Source: Herminiimonas sp. KBW02 (GTDB taxonomy: Bacteria > Pseudomonadota > Gammaproteobacteria > Burkholderiales > Burkholderiaceae_D). From it: a DNA stretch of 64,000 nucleotides. Each line of letters begins with the position of its first letter. Within the stretch, counting starts at the first letter, position 1. Location: positions 1 through 64,000 of the forward strand of contig NZ_QAJP01000001.1 in assembly GCF_003852535.1 (NCBI RefSeq), in the 5' to 3' direction. The position numbers and the translations under genes are program-made. Below the pieces are notes generated by a model. The model was given only the letters and a program-made list of their open reading frames with translations. It did not search any database and was not told the origin of the DNA. This document shows, piece by piece, positions 57,599-64,000 of the stretch.

Positions 57599-59956
57599 CT
57601 ATCCAATCACGCACGGCAGGGTGATGGTGAAGGTACTTCCCTGGCCGACGATACTGCTGACTTCTATGCTGCCGTTGTGGCGTTCGACCACCATTTTTAC
57701 AAACGCCAGTCCGAGGCCGACGCCGTCATGATCCTGTTCGTCTGCACGCAGGAACGGTGAAAAGATAGCTGTGCGATCAGCATCGGAAATACCTTTGCCG
57801 TGGTCGGTGATATTGCACACGACGCTGCTGCCGCTGGCGGTATGTACAGACCTGGCGCTGCAAATGATTTCTGAACCCTTGGGGCTGAATTTGATTGCGT
57901 TCGATAACAAGTTGCCGAGTGCACGTATGACCAGCGAACGATCGACATTCAGCCAGCAGTTCTCTACTTCCTGGGAATCAACCACGATGCTGATGGATTT
58001 GCTATGCGCAAATGCCCACATATCGTCGGCCGCCTCAGCCAGCAGTGATGAAAAATCAGTGTCCTGTAATTGATAGGATTGTGATTCCGCCTTGGCCAGA
58101 TGGACGAAGTCATCCGCCAGGTTGAGGGTGGTTTCAACCGATTTTTCTATGCGGCTGAGGAATTCTGGAATCGCGAATGCAGTGCTCGGGTTTCTTTGCA
58201 ACTGGATCAGCGCGAGGATGGACGATTGCGGCACGCGCATATCATGCGAAATAAAATTCAGGCTTTCTTCGCGCCGGCGTTCGGCAGCGCGTAAGGTCGT
58301 TACGTCAATCAGCGAAACGATCCAGCCCAGCATGGAGCCATCGGCCATGCGCGAAGGCGCGGATTTAATCAGAAATTCACGTTTGTTGACGTCGCGCGTT
58401 TCGATTTCTACTGCGGTATTGCCGGGGGTCGAATGCAACAGTGCCTCGCGCCAGTCGGTGCGCTTGGTGCCGGCGTCCTGGTGCATGTCAAATCTGGAAA
58501 AAATTGCTTCCAGCGTTGGCGTTTGTGTTTTATCCAGATTAAGCGTCGCAAAGTATTCGCGTGCGATGCGGTTATACATGAGGATCTCGCCTGTCTGCGA
58601 CAGAACCAGAGTGGCGTCCGGCATGCTGTTCAGATTGTCGATGACAAACTGATGCATATCGCGTGAGCGATTGGCGGCGATGTGGATGGCGGCAATCTGA
58701 CGATCCAGATAATCGGAATTTTTGATGCGCACAGCTTCGTTTGCATGACGCAAAACCATAGGGGTGGTTTGATTCAGACGCGCAAATTCTTCGCTGAGGT
58801 AGGCAAGGGCAGCCTCAAGCCGCCGCCAGCTCCATAAAGGATAAACGATGACCACCATCAGGATGGCTGCACTCGGCGGTATCCACAATTCTTCGAGGAA
58901 GGCGCCATACGTCAGAGCGCTGATCAGGCTGGCCAGAAAGAGGGTCAGGCCGAGCGCGCCGAACGGCGAGAAGTAACGACAGGCAAGCAGGGCCAGTGAA
59001 GTTGACAGCAGGGTAAACAGGATGGTCTGCCAGCGCGCTGCAGTGCTGATACTGCGTTCTTCGATCAGGCCGGTCAGAATATTGGCATTGATTTCAACGC
59101 CGGACATCGCTTCGTGGTCGGTCGTTACCGGGGTTGCAAAAGTAGAGGCTATGCCAGCCGCGGTTGCGCCGACCAATACATACTTATCCGTAAAGAAGCC
59201 GGGCGGAATCTTGCCCGACAATACATCGATATACGAAATCGTCTTGAAATGACCGGGGCCACCAGCATACGGAATACGCGCAAGGTGATCGCCTTCCGGG
59301 ATATTGTTGAGATCCATATCCCGATAATCGTCAGATACGGTGCCTGCAATATTCATGTGCTGCGTACCATTACTTTGCCCTGCGTTGAAAACCGCCAGTG
59401 CAAATTGCGGCCACGACACGCCATGCAGATTTTCCTGCAGGTAGATGCCTCTGACTACGCCGTCAGCTTCGAAGGTGAAGTGGATATGCCCCAGACCGTT
59501 TGCCGCCTGACGAAGGGCAGGCAAGGGCAATGTCGGTTGCAGGCCGGTAGGCGTGCGTTCTATCAGTACCGGCAAGACGGTGCGCTTGTTGCCGGCGATC
59601 GCACTTGCCAGCAACGCGTCGTCATCGGACAGATACTGCGGCTCGGCGAAGATGATATCCATCCCGACCGCCCTGGCTTTGGCTGCCGTCAGTATGTCCA
59701 GCAATTCCGCATGGGTACGTCGTTGCCATGGCCAGCGGCCGAGCGAGGCGATACTGAATTCATCTATCGCGATAATGACGACATCGGACGGGGCAGCACG
59801 CTGCGTTGCCTTGACCAGATTGTCATATATAAAGCGGTCAGCCTGGCCCAGGCCATTTTCGTACCCGAGCAGGATTGCCAGTAACAGCATGAGGAGCAGG
59901 AAGATGCGCCATTCTTTTCTTAATGGAGATTTAACTGTCCGCAAACTGGGCGTCAT
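57599..59956 (-). CDS. CHASE2-domain sensor histidine kinase
   Basis: 785 residues from ATG 59956 (an in-frame TTG at 59971 is the alternative). After a first transmembrane helix (IFLLLMLLLAILLGY) comes the CHASE2 sensor (about 45-330) with VVIIAIDEFSIASLGRWPWQRRTHAELLD as its conserved opening, then DGVVRGIYLQENLHG. Three transmembrane helices follow (about 320-385). A PAS-like domain is near 450 (NSMPDATLVLSQTGEILMYNR). HisKA has SLNFISHDMRVPQSSILALI with the His; HATPase has ALGNLLSNAIKFSP, ITDHGKGISD and GVGLGLAFVKMVVERH. Its partner sensor input is probably the FecR-domain protein encoded just upstream. Confidence 0.92.
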   Translation of the reverse strand: MTPSLRTVKSPLRKEWRIFLLLMLLLAILLGYENGLGQADRFIYDNLVKATQRAAPSDVVIIAIDEFSIASLGRWPWQRRTHAELLDILTAAKARAVGMDIIFAEPQYLSDDDALLASAIAGNKRTVLPVLIERTPTGLQPTLPLPALRQAANGLGHIHFTFEADGVVRGIYLQENLHGVSWPQFALAVFNAGQSNGTQHMNIAGTVSDDYRDMDLNNIPEGDHLARIPYAGGPGHFKTISYIDVLSGKIPPGFFTDKYVLVGATAAGIASTFATPVTTDHEAMSGVEINANILTGLIEERSISTAARWQTILFTLLSTSLALLACRYFSPFGALGLTLFLASLISALTYGAFLEELWIPPSAAILMVVIVYPLWSWRRLEAALAYLSEEFARLNQTTPMVLRHANEAVRIKNSDYLDRQIAAIHIAANRSRDMHQFVIDNLNSMPDATLVLSQTGEILMYNRIAREYFATLNLDKTQTPTLEAIFSRFDMHQDAGTKRTDWREALLHSTPGNTAVEIETRDVNKREFLIKSAPSRMADGSMLGWIVSLIDVTTLRAAERRREESLNFISHDMRVPQSSILALIQLQRNPSTAFAIPEFLSRIEKSVETTLNLADDFVHLAKAESQSYQLQDTDFSSLLAEAADDMWAFAHSKSISIVVDSQEVENCWLNVDRSLVIRALGNLLSNAIKFSPKGSEIICSARSVHTASGSSVVCNITDHGKGISDADRTAIFSPFLRADEQDHDGVGLGLAFVKMVVERHNGSIEVSSIVGQGSTFTITLPCVIG

Positions 59957-59986
59957 GTATCGGGTAAGCAAACCAGGGCTAGGCGA

Positions 59987-61663
59987 TTAGTAGCTGGTAC
60001 CCAGGGGCTGGCCCTGCGATTCGAGCGTTGCATCGTATTCAGTACGCCATTGCAGCGGTACCGAGAATTTTTGTGCTGGCGAGAAGGCACCGACGAAGCC
60101 GTCGCTATCCGTGCTACGTACGCGCGCATAGTAGACGCCTGCTTCCGGACGAGGAATGGCGACTTCTGCTTTTGCGCTCTCTATATTGTTCAGCAATGTT
60201 TTGAATTCCGGCGTGTCGGCAACCTGGAAGGTAAAGTGCTGGCCAGGTGCGGCACTCCAGGAAAACTGGATTTCCTTTTGCCCTATGCTGGCGGATGGCG
60301 CATCCAGGCCTGCTACCACGGCCAATGGTTTTGCGTCGCCAAACGGTCCCTGTTTCGAAGTGCTGCCAGACTGCAGTATCGAAGCGACACGCCAGTAATA
60401 ATTGCCGCTGGCGAGCGATACGATCATTTGATCCTGCCCTGTTTCTGCGGTCTGGTCGAAGATAAGGGTCTTGAATGCAGCATCGCTTGCCACTTGCACG
60501 CGATAATCCCTGATACCCTCTGCCAGCGACCATTTCATCGTGACAGGGATTTTTTTATTCTGTACTTGCCCCTGGAACTTGGTACCCGGTTGCAGCAGGA
60601 AGGGCGGGAATGGACGCGCATCGACACGGAAGGCCTGTATCGTCGAGACACCCTCGAGGCCGACTGCATCCAGCGCACTGGCACGGACAAAGTAAGCGCC
60701 ATCTTCCAGATTTTCCAGTTTCGCGACGGCTTTGCCTTGACTACTGCGTACGCTGATTTCGGCAATATTATTGCGGCCCGCTGCGTCTGTGGAAATGACG
60801 ACGCGGAAAGCGGAAGCGTCCGCGTGCGACAGCGGGAACTGGATAGGCAAGCGTGTTTGCTGTTGATAGCCGTCAAGCAGTAGCGGCGCCTTTAGCAGAT
60901 TGACTGGTTTACTGACACGGCCGTTCTCGACCACGGTGCCGTAACCGGCAGCAACCAGTTGCTTGCTGGGCTTATTGACGGCTGTATTTTGTGCGACGGC
61001 GACTTTGCCTTCCAGCACTTCATTCAAGACCCTTTGGTCATCAACGTTCACGCGGAAGTCGGTGCCGCGTACGCCGGATACGGCGAGCGGGCTGATGACT
61101 TCATATTTGCTGTCGGGTTTGTTGAGTGGTGTAACGTGCGATTCAACCCGGCCTTTTTGCAGATACAGCTGCGTGCGCGGTGTTTCCACATATTGCGTGG
61201 CGCGCAGCAAGCGCAGGTTGACGACGCTATTTGGTGGCAGTGTGAATTGGGTGCCGTCATCCAGCATCAGCGAAATGAAACTATTCGCCATCGTGGTCAG
61301 CGTATCGCCTTCTTTTAATAGTGCATCGATCTTCGCCTCTATAGCGCTGCCGTCATGTCCGCGGATCACGACGTCGCCGAAGAAACTTTTGATGCGGGCA
61401 AATGCAGAAACCGGGGTGAGCAGGCGAGTAGGAATCAGGACTTTGCGGCCGATAGGGATCGCCCTGTCGTTTTCGATCTGGTTGGTCTGGCCTATCGTGC
61501 GCCAGTTTTTGACATGGCCGGTGAATTTCTGCGAAATACTGGACAGGGTTTCGTGTTGCGAAACGGAATAGATAACGCCATCGCGCGTTACGCTGATGTT
61601 ATCGGCGTATGCGGAAGAAGTGATGGCGATTAACAGGAATGCACTAGCTATGGTTCTCAACAC
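59987..61663 (-). CDS. Secreted LysM-FecR domain protein
   Basis: 558 residues from GTG 61663, preceded by AAGAGG six bases upstream. A signal peptide (LRTIASAFLLIAITSSAYA) is cut near residue 20. A LysM domain (about 25-78, GVIYSVSQHETLSSISQKFTG) would bind peptidoglycan. A FecR domain follows (about 85-235), with ARIKSFFGDVVIRG, TLPPNSVVNLRLL and VSGVRGTDFRVNVDDQRV. The rest (240-558) is beta-rich with three or more fibronectin-like modules, for example EISVRSSQGKAVAKLENLEDG and YYWRVASILQSGS. It leads the operon and could be an outer cell-wall sensor for the CHASE2 kinase. Confidence 0.86.
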   Translation of the reverse strand: MLRTIASAFLLIAITSSAYADNISVTRDGVIYSVSQHETLSSISQKFTGHVKNWRTIGQTNQIENDRAIPIGRKVLIPTRLLTPVSAFARIKSFFGDVVIRGHDGSAIEAKIDALLKEGDTLTTMANSFISLMLDDGTQFTLPPNSVVNLRLLRATQYVETPRTQLYLQKGRVESHVTPLNKPDSKYEVISPLAVSGVRGTDFRVNVDDQRVLNEVLEGKVAVAQNTAVNKPSKQLVAAGYGTVVENGRVSKPVNLLKAPLLLDGYQQQTRLPIQFPLSHADASAFRVVISTDAAGRNNIAEISVRSSQGKAVAKLENLEDGAYFVRASALDAVGLEGVSTIQAFRVDARPFPPFLLQPGTKFQGQVQNKKIPVTMKWSLAEGIRDYRVQVASDAAFKTLIFDQTAETGQDQMIVSLASGNYYWRVASILQSGSTSKQGPFGDAKPLAVVAGLDAPSASIGQKEIQFSWSAAPGQHFTFQVADTPEFKTLLNNIESAKAEVAIPRPEAGVYYARVRSTDSDGFVGAFSPAQKFSVPLQWRTEYDATLESQGQPLGTSY

Positions 61664-62151
61664 TGCTTGCCTCTTAAAGTACTTCGCGAAATGCCTGAAA
61701 GTGTGGTGTTTTGTTGATTTCGGGAATTATAGGTGTATCAGAAAAGCCGGATGGTGATGAAACGTTAACATTTGCAAATATTGCCGATATGGCCTGATTT
61801 TGCTTGGCGCAGGCCATGCTTCTTATGATAACGACGTATATGTAGATGCTGTCTTGTATATGCATACACATATATTTCCACATGGAAATACTTTGCTGTG
61901 GCTTTTCTGCAAAATACAATGATTTGTGCGCGCCTGAACAAGTTTGCCCGTCGTGAGCAGCCTAGTATTTGCTGATTCTATATCCATTCCGCAGCGCCGA
62001 ATTTATTCCGGGCAATGTCGCTTATGAATGTGCTCCTTGTGCATTCTTTGTCCCAGCCCGGTCTGATAGCGAGTGAGCTGTCGTAATATTGCATTGAATA
62101 GAATGAAGCGTGCCGCTGCAGGCATATGGATTTAGAAGATGTGGGTGAAGC
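61664..62151. other. Long AT-rich intergenic region between divergent genes
   Basis: 488 bases separate the FecR gene and the AraC-amidase fusion. It holds an inverted repeat at 61873-61890 and stretches rich in TATA and ATAT near 61840-61880. I see no coding frame in the direction of either neighbour that I would support. It should contain promoters for both genes, but none has two good hexamers. Confidence 0.5.
61873..61890. promoter_or_regulatory. Palindromic candidate operator
   Basis: TATTTCCA and TGGAAATA are perfect reverse complements with a two-base centre (CA). It lies 210 bases upstream of the FecR start and 261 bases upstream of the fusion gene, inside an AT-rich region. It could be a binding site for either regulator. 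Confidence 0.35.
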
Positions 62152-64000
62152 ATGGCTGATAACTTGAATCGTTTTTCGACTGACGCCTTCCCTGGCGAGT
62201 TACGTGCTGCAGCATGGCTGCAGACCCTGGGTCGAATTGGCGTGGCATGCGATTTCCCCGCAACAGAGCGCGCACCTCTGCACGGTTGTGCGTCTGTCAG
62301 CGTTTCTTCCCGCTCGTCTGTTTTTGCCAAATTGCATGGTTCACCGCAGATACTGCATTCGTCGCAGGATGCAGTGGGCAAGCGCAATGACGTGGTCCTG
62401 ATCCTGGCACTGCTGGAAGGTCACGGCCAGGTCAGCGTCGGACCGGAGTCCGCACGCCTGCTTGCCGGAGATATCTTTTTGCTAAATCCACAGCAAGACT
62501 GGCGACTCGATTTGCAGACGGCATTCACGGCGATTATGGTCGAGCTGAAGGAGGCCGGATTTCTGGCTCGTCTGATGCGCACCGGCTCCAGTGATCTGAA
62601 TAAAGTCGTCACGAATTTTGGCGCTGGCGGTATCAGCGCCGACTTCCTGTATTCGATAGGTGAACACTTCGACGGCTTAAGCCCGGAAGATCTGGGACAG
62701 ATGGAGGCCAGTCTGACCAGCTTGCTGATTGCAGGTATGGCGCGGCATGGTGATGCCGAGGAGTCGGGCGATAGCGATGCCGAGCATTCCACCTCGGTCC
62801 AGCTCGGACATCTGCGCCGGGTTTGTCGCAGCATAGAAAACCGGCTGACCGATCCTGATGTCTCGATAGGCGAAATCGCCCGCATAGAAAATTTATCCGC
62901 ACGCTATATACAAAAGCTGTTTGCTGGTGGAGACACCACATTTGGCGAATACGTAAAGAAGCGCAGACTGGATCGTTGTCGTAATGATCTGGCCAATAGT
63001 GCGCTCAAGCATTTGACCATTTGCGAACTGTGCTTCCGTTGGGGCTTTAACGATGCGGCTAACTTCAGCCGGGCGTTCAACCTAGAGTTCGGCATCAGTC
63101 CCAAAGCGTATCGTGCTACTGCCGGTAAACAAATTGCCTTGCATTTGCAAAGGGGGCGCCCTGCCAGCAATGCGGCAGTGACTTCAGAAAAGAGACGCAA
63201 CAGCCGCAAAGTGCACGGCGCCGCAAGTGTCGTGCACATCGTCGCTGAAAAGGATGGCTTGCGTGATCAATTCGCCAGTATCCTGAGCGAAATCGCCGAT
63301 TACGATGTGGCGCTCCTGCCCGTTGCTGAGCACGGAAATTTGCCTGCAAACGATGAGCACTCATCGCTCAACTCCGTTCAGAGCAAGCATCACTACATCC
63401 CGGTGTCGGACAAGACTGTGCACTGGGGCTATTTCAGCCAAACGATCAAGCCGGTGGTCACTGTGCATTCTGGCGATTGCGTCACGATAGAAACGCTGAC
63501 CCAACATGCGTACGATGATTACGAGCGCATGATTAAAGGCGATCCTGGCGCAGAGAGCGTGTTCCATTGGGATGCCAAGGGAAAATCGGTGGATCGCCGC
63601 GGTTCCGGTCCGATAGACGGCTCCATTTATGGGCGCGGTGCCGGTGAGGGCTTTGGTGTGCATATCTGTACCGGTCCTGTTTATGTGCAGGATGCAGAAC
63701 CGGGCGATGTGCTGGAAATACGCATACTCGATATACAAACCAGGCCTGCGGCCGCCGAAGAGTACATAGGTAAATCATTCGGCAGTAATGCTGCGTCATG
63801 GTGGGGCTTCCATTATCATGACTTGCTGACCGAGCCCAAGCCGCGTGAAGTTGTGACCATTTACGAGATTGAACATCCGACGCATGAGCATTGCTGCGCC
63901 AAGGCGGTCTACAACTTCCGCTGGACACCGCAGACCGATCCATTCGGCGTGCGGCATGACACCATAGATTATCCGGGTATTCCGGTTAATCACAGCAGCA
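62152..64000 (+). CDS. AraC-family regulator fused to acetamidase/formamidase (partial at window end)
   Basis: An uninterrupted frame from ATG 62152 to the last base, 616 codons with no stop, so the gene is cut by the window edge. An in-frame TGA at 62146 fixes the start. Residues 1-200 look like an AraC_binding-type domain (QILHSSQDAVGKRNDVVLIL, GDIFLLNPQQDWRLDL). The double HTH of AraC lies at about 220-324: LTDPDVSIGEIARIENLSARYIQKLF, then ICELCFRWGFNDAANFSRAF with FGISPKAYRA. After a linker of about 85 residues, the acetamidase/formamidase domain begins near 413: DKTVHWGYFSQTIKPVVTV, SGDCVTIETLTQHA, GRGAGEGFGVHICTGPVYVQ and FGSNAASWWGFHYHDLL. The rest of the amidase lies past 64000. Confidence 0.88.
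   Translation, partial: MADNLNRFSTDAFPGELRAAAWLQTLGRIGVACDFPATERAPLHGCASVSVSSRSSVFAKLHGSPQILHSSQDAVGKRNDVVLILALLEGHGQVSVGPESARLLAGDIFLLNPQQDWRLDLQTAFTAIMVELKEAGFLARLMRTGSSDLNKVVTNFGAGGISADFLYSIGEHFDGLSPEDLGQMEASLTSLLIAGMARHGDAEESGDSDAEHSTSVQLGHLRRVCRSIENRLTDPDVSIGEIARIENLSARYIQKLFAGGDTTFGEYVKKRRLDRCRNDLANSALKHLTICELCFRWGFNDAANFSRAFNLEFGISPKAYRATAGKQIALHLQRGRPASNAAVTSEKRRNSRKVHGAASVVHIVAEKDGLRDQFASILSEIADYDVALLPVAEHGNLPANDEHSSLNSVQSKHHYIPVSDKTVHWGYFSQTIKPVVTVHSGDCVTIETLTQHAYDDYERMIKGDPGAESVFHWDAKGKSVDRRGSGPIDGSIYGRGAGEGFGVHICTGPVYVQDAEPGDVLEIRILDIQTRPAAAEEYIGKSFGSNAASWWGFHYHDLLTEPKPREVVTIYEIEHPTHEHCCAKAVYNFRWTPQTDPFGVRHDTIDYPGIPVNHSS

Follow-up and report, generated by a model that had tools for sequence, protein, structure and literature searches.

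Why a regulator of transcription should carry an amidase in the same polypeptide is the question raised by a locus at the end of the DNA stretch analysed here (the window, 64,000 nucleotides), which makes up positions 1-64000 of a contig of 96,601 bases in a 3.64 Mb Herminiimonas genome. The first-pass annotation had described a reading frame of 616 codons from 62152, open at the window edge and joining a regulator to an acetamidase/formamidase, and the frame is present as described: it occupies 62152..63999 of the plus strand, starts with an ATG and has only the first half of its amidase inside the window. When the sequence was extended past 64000, as had been proposed, the remainder of the amidase was found there, and a stop codon at 64633-64635 of the contig closes a protein of 827 aa in which Pfam recognizes both parts. 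A frameshift or assembly error at 63120-63390 was rejected, since the junction is likewise open in 39 other fusions (one of which, L092, is cut by the end of its contig), and a search for the same domain order elsewhere returned full-length homologues with both halves in Alpha-, Beta- and Gammaproteobacteria and on plasmids. The AraC-amidase fusion is confirmed as real, and its gene is organized as follows.

62152..64000 within the window (whole gene 62152-64635 of the contig), plus strand: AraC-amidase fusion gene (ORF list, contig frame, Pfam)
62170..62556, plus strand: cupin/jelly-roll N-domain, residues 7-135 (AraC_binding_2-like in Pfam, just under the cut-off; AlphaFold; Foldseek)
62803..63123, plus strand: AraC-type double helix-turn-helix (HTH), residues 218-324 (Pfam, AlphaFold; invariant stretches among 11 fusions)
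63124..63378, plus strand: variable linker, residues 325-409 (25% mean pairwise identity among 32 fusions, low pLDDT)
63151..63162, plus strand: RGRP motif just past the HTH, residues 334-337, which we take to be AT-hook-like (RGRP/RGSP in 37 of 40 fusions)
63382..64000, plus strand: part of the amidase domain, residues 411-616 (Pfam, Foldseek; the domain extends to about residue 824)
63502..63504, plus strand: codon for Gln451, a His in every non-fused copy compared (alignments)

In Pfam, HTH_18 was found over its cut-off at residues 242-322 (59.7 bits vs 33.6), placing the regulator half with the AraC/XylS HTH proteins, as were HTH_AraC at residues 286-321 (28.1 bits vs a cut-off of 26.6) and FmdA_AmdA (PF03069) at residues 503-810 (102.6 bits vs 27). 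The N-terminus reached 25.5 bits against AraC_binding_2, for which the cut-off is 27. The AlphaFold model of the fusion (mean pLDDT 79, pTM 0.53) has a jelly roll at about residues 7-132, helices to about 202, an HTH region at 212-327 and an amidase fold after about 409, with low confidence across most of 326-409. In Foldseek, the N-terminal half matched AraC proteins such as CuxR (5nla), more loosely than the amidase half matched 3b9t, and the model supports the view that the N-domain is probably an AraC-type jelly roll. None of 21 unfused AraC relatives carries the RGRP/RGSP motif, and several of them end shortly after the HTH. Compared with its two closest relatives, the window gene gave dN/dS values of 0.009-0.016 for the HTH, 0.012-0.018 for the amidase domain and 0.11-0.15 for the linker; dS was high (0.9-2.6), which makes these ratios rough, and their low values indicate a maintained gene.

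The fusion was found in 9 of 13 sampled genomes of its own genus (Herminiimonas and Oxalicibacterium records together, the window's genome included), where one homologue is 93% identical to the window's protein, and in 4 of 53 genomes of the genus to which the Delftia genomes belong. At full length it occurred in 2 of 399 genomes of an order sample and in 8 of 398 genomes of a phylum sample. Relatives were also taken from a contig search with the AraC halves, of which the best 80 of 87 were used, and the final comparison set held 40 fusions, after eight repeat-genome loci had been removed and the loci of the own genome and its relatives added. Their hosts belong to Herminiimonas, Oxalicibacterium, Aquabacterium, Methylibium, Variovorax, Delftia, Rubrivivax, Pseudomonas, Asticcacaulis, Sphingomonas and others. 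Among plasmids, 15 records had one place covering at least 80% of the fusion protein, with hosts that include Paraburkholderia, Caballeronia, Variovorax, Rhizobium, Sinorhizobium and Neorhizobium; the annotation under these matches reads acetamidase/formamidase in five, AraC regulator in one, and is missing in the remainder. A literature search judged from listings, with most subscription journals outside it, returned no description of an AraC-acetamidase fusion.

Where did the fused enzyme come from? The 40 fused amidase domains formed a single clade (SH-aLRT 97) in a tree of 111 amidase domains, and across our amidase trees, which were quick and built without bootstrap, this clade received an SH-aLRT of 95-97. 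Independent fusions in separate lineages are thus unsupported for the amidase part, and the computation identifies the fused amidase as an apparent duplicate of the stand-alone amidases with a single origin. The AraC tree requires three changes between the fused and unfused states because unfused Caulobacter-type regulators nest inside the fused ones, a grouping for which the program warned of long branches. A stand-alone amidase of the same type adjoins the fusion in 24 of the 40 loci, either upstream on the same strand or divergently, and these neighbours are about 60-68% identical. We also considered whether the fused domain has evolved at a higher rate than the enzyme, but this was not uniform: in 177 of 294 genome pairs it was the stand-alone copy that was better conserved. 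Other long frames at stand-alone amidases (L017, L019, L027 and L208) were judged by eye to be start-codon over-extensions and not new fusions. At their N-termini, many stand-alone amidases carry HxCxxGC or MCxGDD together with a twin-arginine-like RRSF stretch, presumably a Tat signal; the Herminiimonas and Oxalicibacterium copies are without this form. Whether the enzyme is exported or cytosolic may therefore depend on the genus.

The genome from which the window derives has two stand-alone amidase genes, both away from the fusion. One (C2) encodes 474 aa and is followed by a Porin_4 gene; the other (C11, L010:7393-8816), followed by a XapX gene, has a frame interrupted near its end and an intact copy of the operator described below, while the matching copy in G577 (L151) has an open frame. 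In the congener G609, an amidase, two XapX genes and the fusion stand in a row at the same chromosomal spot, behind the same upstream genes. The likeliest explanation is that the window's lineage lost the local amidase and xapX genes, whereas their promoter was retained and now precedes the fusion. The two XapX genes between amidase and fusion are small (L058:8431-8906 in G609, and likewise in congeners).

Upstream regions of the stand-alone amidases in the own genus contain a conspicuous block in which two ACAA half-sites stand at a distance of 22 nt, following the pattern ACAA-n4-TnGTnCG-n7-ACAA, and the same block is found in front of the fusion.

61916..61942, plus strand: probable operator ACAATGATTTGTGCGCGCCTGAACAAG with paired ACAA half-sites at a distance of 22 nt, 236 nt upstream of the fusion ATG
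61963..61968, plus strand: TAGTAT, a -10-like element 47 nt from the operator start

With a matrix built from 11 amidase promoters, the window site being left out, 61913-61949 scored highest in the 20 kb that surround the fusion (18.2; the runner-up reached 5.5). It is the sole match in the window, and none of 100 shuffles gave one, so that the match is beyond chance. In the whole genome (3.64 Mb), with one mismatch allowed, the operator pattern occurs three times, before the fusion, C2 and C11, and the reversed pattern does not occur. However, this pattern was written with all these sites in view and the motif promoters included C2 and C11, so what the genome scan tests is the specificity of the pattern and not the C2 and C11 sites themselves; for the probable site in the window, the 20-kb matrix scan provides the independent evidence.

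A slightly broader pattern gave 30 exact sites in 24 of 28 fusion-bearing genomes and none in the reversed control, leaving four of the 28 without an exact site. Judged by position and reading frames, these sites precede the fusion in three cases, a stand-alone amidase in 21 and a porin gene in six, all six porins being Porin_4 in Pfam. Nine of the 21 amidase sites lie in a promoter region shared with a divergent fusion and face the amidase. Two of the porin sites (in G609 and G498) lie far away from the fusion, where a mere leftover of the local region would not be expected. Counting sites with at most one of the 13 fixed positions mismatched, 27 of 33 stand-alone amidases in fusion-bearing genomes have one upstream. 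No such site was seen before those of L089, L094 (amidase side), L098, L117 and L149, and the P. typographi amidase has an exact site outside the region given by the scripted start estimate. Among stand-alone amidases of genomes that lack the fusion, 0 of 20 had an operator site (best 4-6 mismatches), these control promoters having been scanned with uncertain start codons and locus gene calls from a crude script. With a pattern settled in advance of the scan, sites with no more than one mismatch were present at 6 of 6 further phylum-sample loci, five times before the substrate-binding gene of a run of ABC transporter, amidase and fusion genes and once before the fusion, and at 5 of 8 plasmid loci, L188, L192 and L193 having none.

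We therefore hypothesize that the fusion is a one-component activator whose C-terminal amidase, a duplicated copy of the enzyme that it controls, serves mainly as a sensor of the substrate, a reading to which we give a probability of about 0.62. The operator in front of the fusion implies that in the window's lineage the protein would also regulate itself. The earlier proposal of an amide-responsive regulator fits what was found, namely a single chain, wide conservation, a probable operator and a gene order with amidase and transport genes.

The fusion could also act as a repressor, or respond to the acid or ammonia product instead of the amide. In the own genus, however, the paired site lies upstream of the -10-like element at a constant distance: TAnnnT was found 46-48 nt from the start of the site at all 21 distinct own-genus sites examined. 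This is a usual layout for an AraC-type activator, and AraC-family proteins are mostly activators. The -10-like form is missing at 11 of 12 sites from other genera. We regard repression or a response to the product as very improbable, and infer activation by an amide through binding at the operator.

The residue at position 451 bears on whether the fused amidase is still an enzyme. In the alignment of 111 domains, all 71 non-fused copies have His at this position (33 whose genome also has a fusion, 19 whose genome has none and 19 of a distant type); among the 40 fusions, 31 have Gln. The additional samples agree: on plasmids we found Gln in 7 of 8 fusions and His in 7 of 7 non-fused copies, and in the phylum sample Gln in 6 of 6 new fusions, His in 5 of 5 adjacent stand-alone copies and His in 8 of 8 stand-alone copies without a fusion match (one of these eight had been counted earlier). 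Three changes on the tree suffice to explain this pattern, which means that the sequence counts overstate the number of independent events. His451 was found in the fusions of Asticcacaulis, Sphingomonas and Novosphingobium and in that of a single MAG (L117), the latter although a stand-alone copy adjoins it, and L114 has a Gln-type fusion in a genome without an A-type stand-alone copy. The other conserved residues are retained in the fusions (His452, Asp455, His504, His634, Asn659, Asp661, His688, Gln691, Asp693, Glu695, Glu702 and His815, with Asp686 in 39 of 40), so amidase activity may survive.

The first-pass annotation had suggested that the protein hydrolyses the amide to end the signal. 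As a bifunctional regulator-enzyme, it would sense the amide with its cupin domain and consume it with the fused amidase, and such a design would accord with the strong purifying selection on the amidase domain and its nearly complete set of conserved residues. It would accord best with the Asticcacaulis and Sphingomonas fusions, which have His451 and no second copy of this amidase type in the 8 genomes searched (by whole-genome protein searches in which a few top candidates were scored for each genome); in these hosts the fusion may be a working enzyme. Most fusions, the window's included, nevertheless have Gln451 where all 71 non-fused copies have His, separate amidases (the C11 copy with its interrupted frame among them) stand under the same operator, and regulators are normally made in small amounts. 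For the window's protein, hydrolysis as the end of the signal is less likely, and we consider the bifunctional explanation unlikely; the mechanism possibly fits better the minority of His-type fusions (Asticcacaulis, Sphingomonas, Novosphingobium and L117). In Gln-type proteins, catalysis would instead be reduced and the domain retained for sensing.

A further explanation assigns ligand sensing to the cupin N-domain, which is how other AraC regulators work, and regards the amidase as a structural or oligomerisation module which senses nothing. Indeed, Caulobacter has an AraC gene that encodes this N-domain and HTH but no amidase domain and immediately follows a shorter and more distant amidase gene (e.g. 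L096:4090-6951), and the N-domain can presumably work alone in such relatives. A LigB-type dioxygenase gene precedes the short amidase gene at this locus, and Rieske and TauD-type oxygenase genes are found near the related locus L067. However, the amidase is the most conserved part of the fusions, with a mean pairwise identity of 69% among 32 of them against 34% for the cupin domain, and it has kept its invariant His, Asp and Glu residues. A purely structural role thus appears quite improbable, and we infer that sensing resides in the amidase domain.

For the substrate-sensing activator that we prefer, the following course of events can be proposed. An amide would enter through the porin or, in other species, through the ABC transporter, and in some species it may be produced from a nitrile by nitrile hydratase. 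It would bind the fused amidase domain, and binding would free or arrange the AraC part on the paired ACAA half-sites beside the -10 element, so that the stand-alone amidase genes and the associated porin or transport genes are turned on, together with the fusion gene itself in the window's lineage. The stand-alone amidase would then clear the amide, and the signal would decay.

The amide as the signal is suggested by the amidase family and by the gene context. In P. typographi (L148:4844-15789), the order is operator, amidase, UrtA...UrtD, UrtE, nitrile hydratase beta, alpha and accessory genes, fusion and CbtB, an apparent operon in which UrtA, UrtD and UrtE of a urea-type ABC transporter are over the cut-off. 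CbtB at this locus is a cobalt-transporter subunit. On the Rhizobium and Neorhizobium plasmids, the annotation lists a substrate-binding protein, an ABC transporter, the amidase, the fusion and a RidA-type gene, and the same type of order was found at the phylum-sample loci from positions, with Pfam on examples. Near the Caballeronia fusion locus, nthB is annotated. Because nitrile hydratase genes lie near some fusions, indole-3-acetamide is one possible ligand; Arabidopsis acetamidase/formamidase proteins act on it according to one report (PMC7923163), and another counts the PF03069 family among the formamidases (PMC10781810). In Variovorax boronicumulans, an AraC-family regulator gene lies upstream of the amidase-signature gene amiD, as a separate gene and not as a fusion (PMC11573777). 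Around the window's fusion, a CHASE2 sensor-kinase gene and a FecR-domain gene occupy 57599-61663 upstream, on the other strand, and the contig beyond it (L008:10364-14450) carries a cheW gene and two chemoreceptor genes; cheW and a chemoreceptor are also found near the fusion in G577, G587, G598 and G620.

Among known proteins, FeaR (NF007243) is the best NCBIfam match (residues 68-323, 99 bits) and shares the N-domain and double HTH with the fusion, which is nonetheless under the equivalog cut-off (99 vs 199 bits) and differs by the extra amidase domain of about 410 residues and by the RG(R/S)P motif of 37 of the 40 fusions. The nearest solved structure of PF03069 is 3b9t from Methylobacillus flagellatus, labelled a Tat signal protein, to which the amidase domain can be aligned in full (64% identical residues; Foldseek TM 0.92 over the target); the window's amidase differs in being fused to a regulator and in having Gln451 for His. 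Against the classical formamidase FmdA (NF045496) the fusion scored 52.7 bits, far below the equivalog cut-off of 500, and the fused amidase is therefore not a classical FmdA. Trigger enzymes are active enzymes that also control genes; for the fusion, the controlling side is backed by the predicted operator, and catalysis is putative. Ada is an enzyme-containing AraC protein, and MocR/GabR are enzyme-derived one-component regulators. Ada and MocR/GabR resemble the fusion in that one polypeptide combines an enzyme fold with a transcription factor, but in the fusion the enzyme part is a copy of an enzyme whose gene shares the operator. Yeast Gal3 is a galactokinase copy turned galactose sensor that acts through protein partners. 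The proposed likeness lies in the use of a slightly changed duplicate of the controlled enzyme as a sensor, although in the present case copy and DNA-binding protein are directly linked.

More broadly, these proteins could form a widespread class of regulators in which a duplicate of the enzyme was fused once to the AraC regulator of its operon, His was changed to Gln as the domain became a sensor, and His was regained where the stand-alone enzyme was lost, a history that we put forward tentatively, at somewhat less than even odds. If it is true, both the conversion of an enzyme into a sensor and its reversal would be readable within one family, whereas such changes are usually inferred from single cases. 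With one apparent fusion event, dozens of descendants and the parent enzymes adjoining many of them, the conversion would be directly testable in culturable bacteria; a candidate residue can also be named, an operator has been predicted and there is an apparent reversal to draw on. In the window's genome, the predicted regulon would be made up of the fusion, C2 with the adjoining porin gene, and the C11 locus with xapX. Across species, the predicted regulon comprises the amidase, the porin, the ABC transporter and, in some species, nitrile hydratase, and the fusion may be regarded as a candidate biosensor part for amides.
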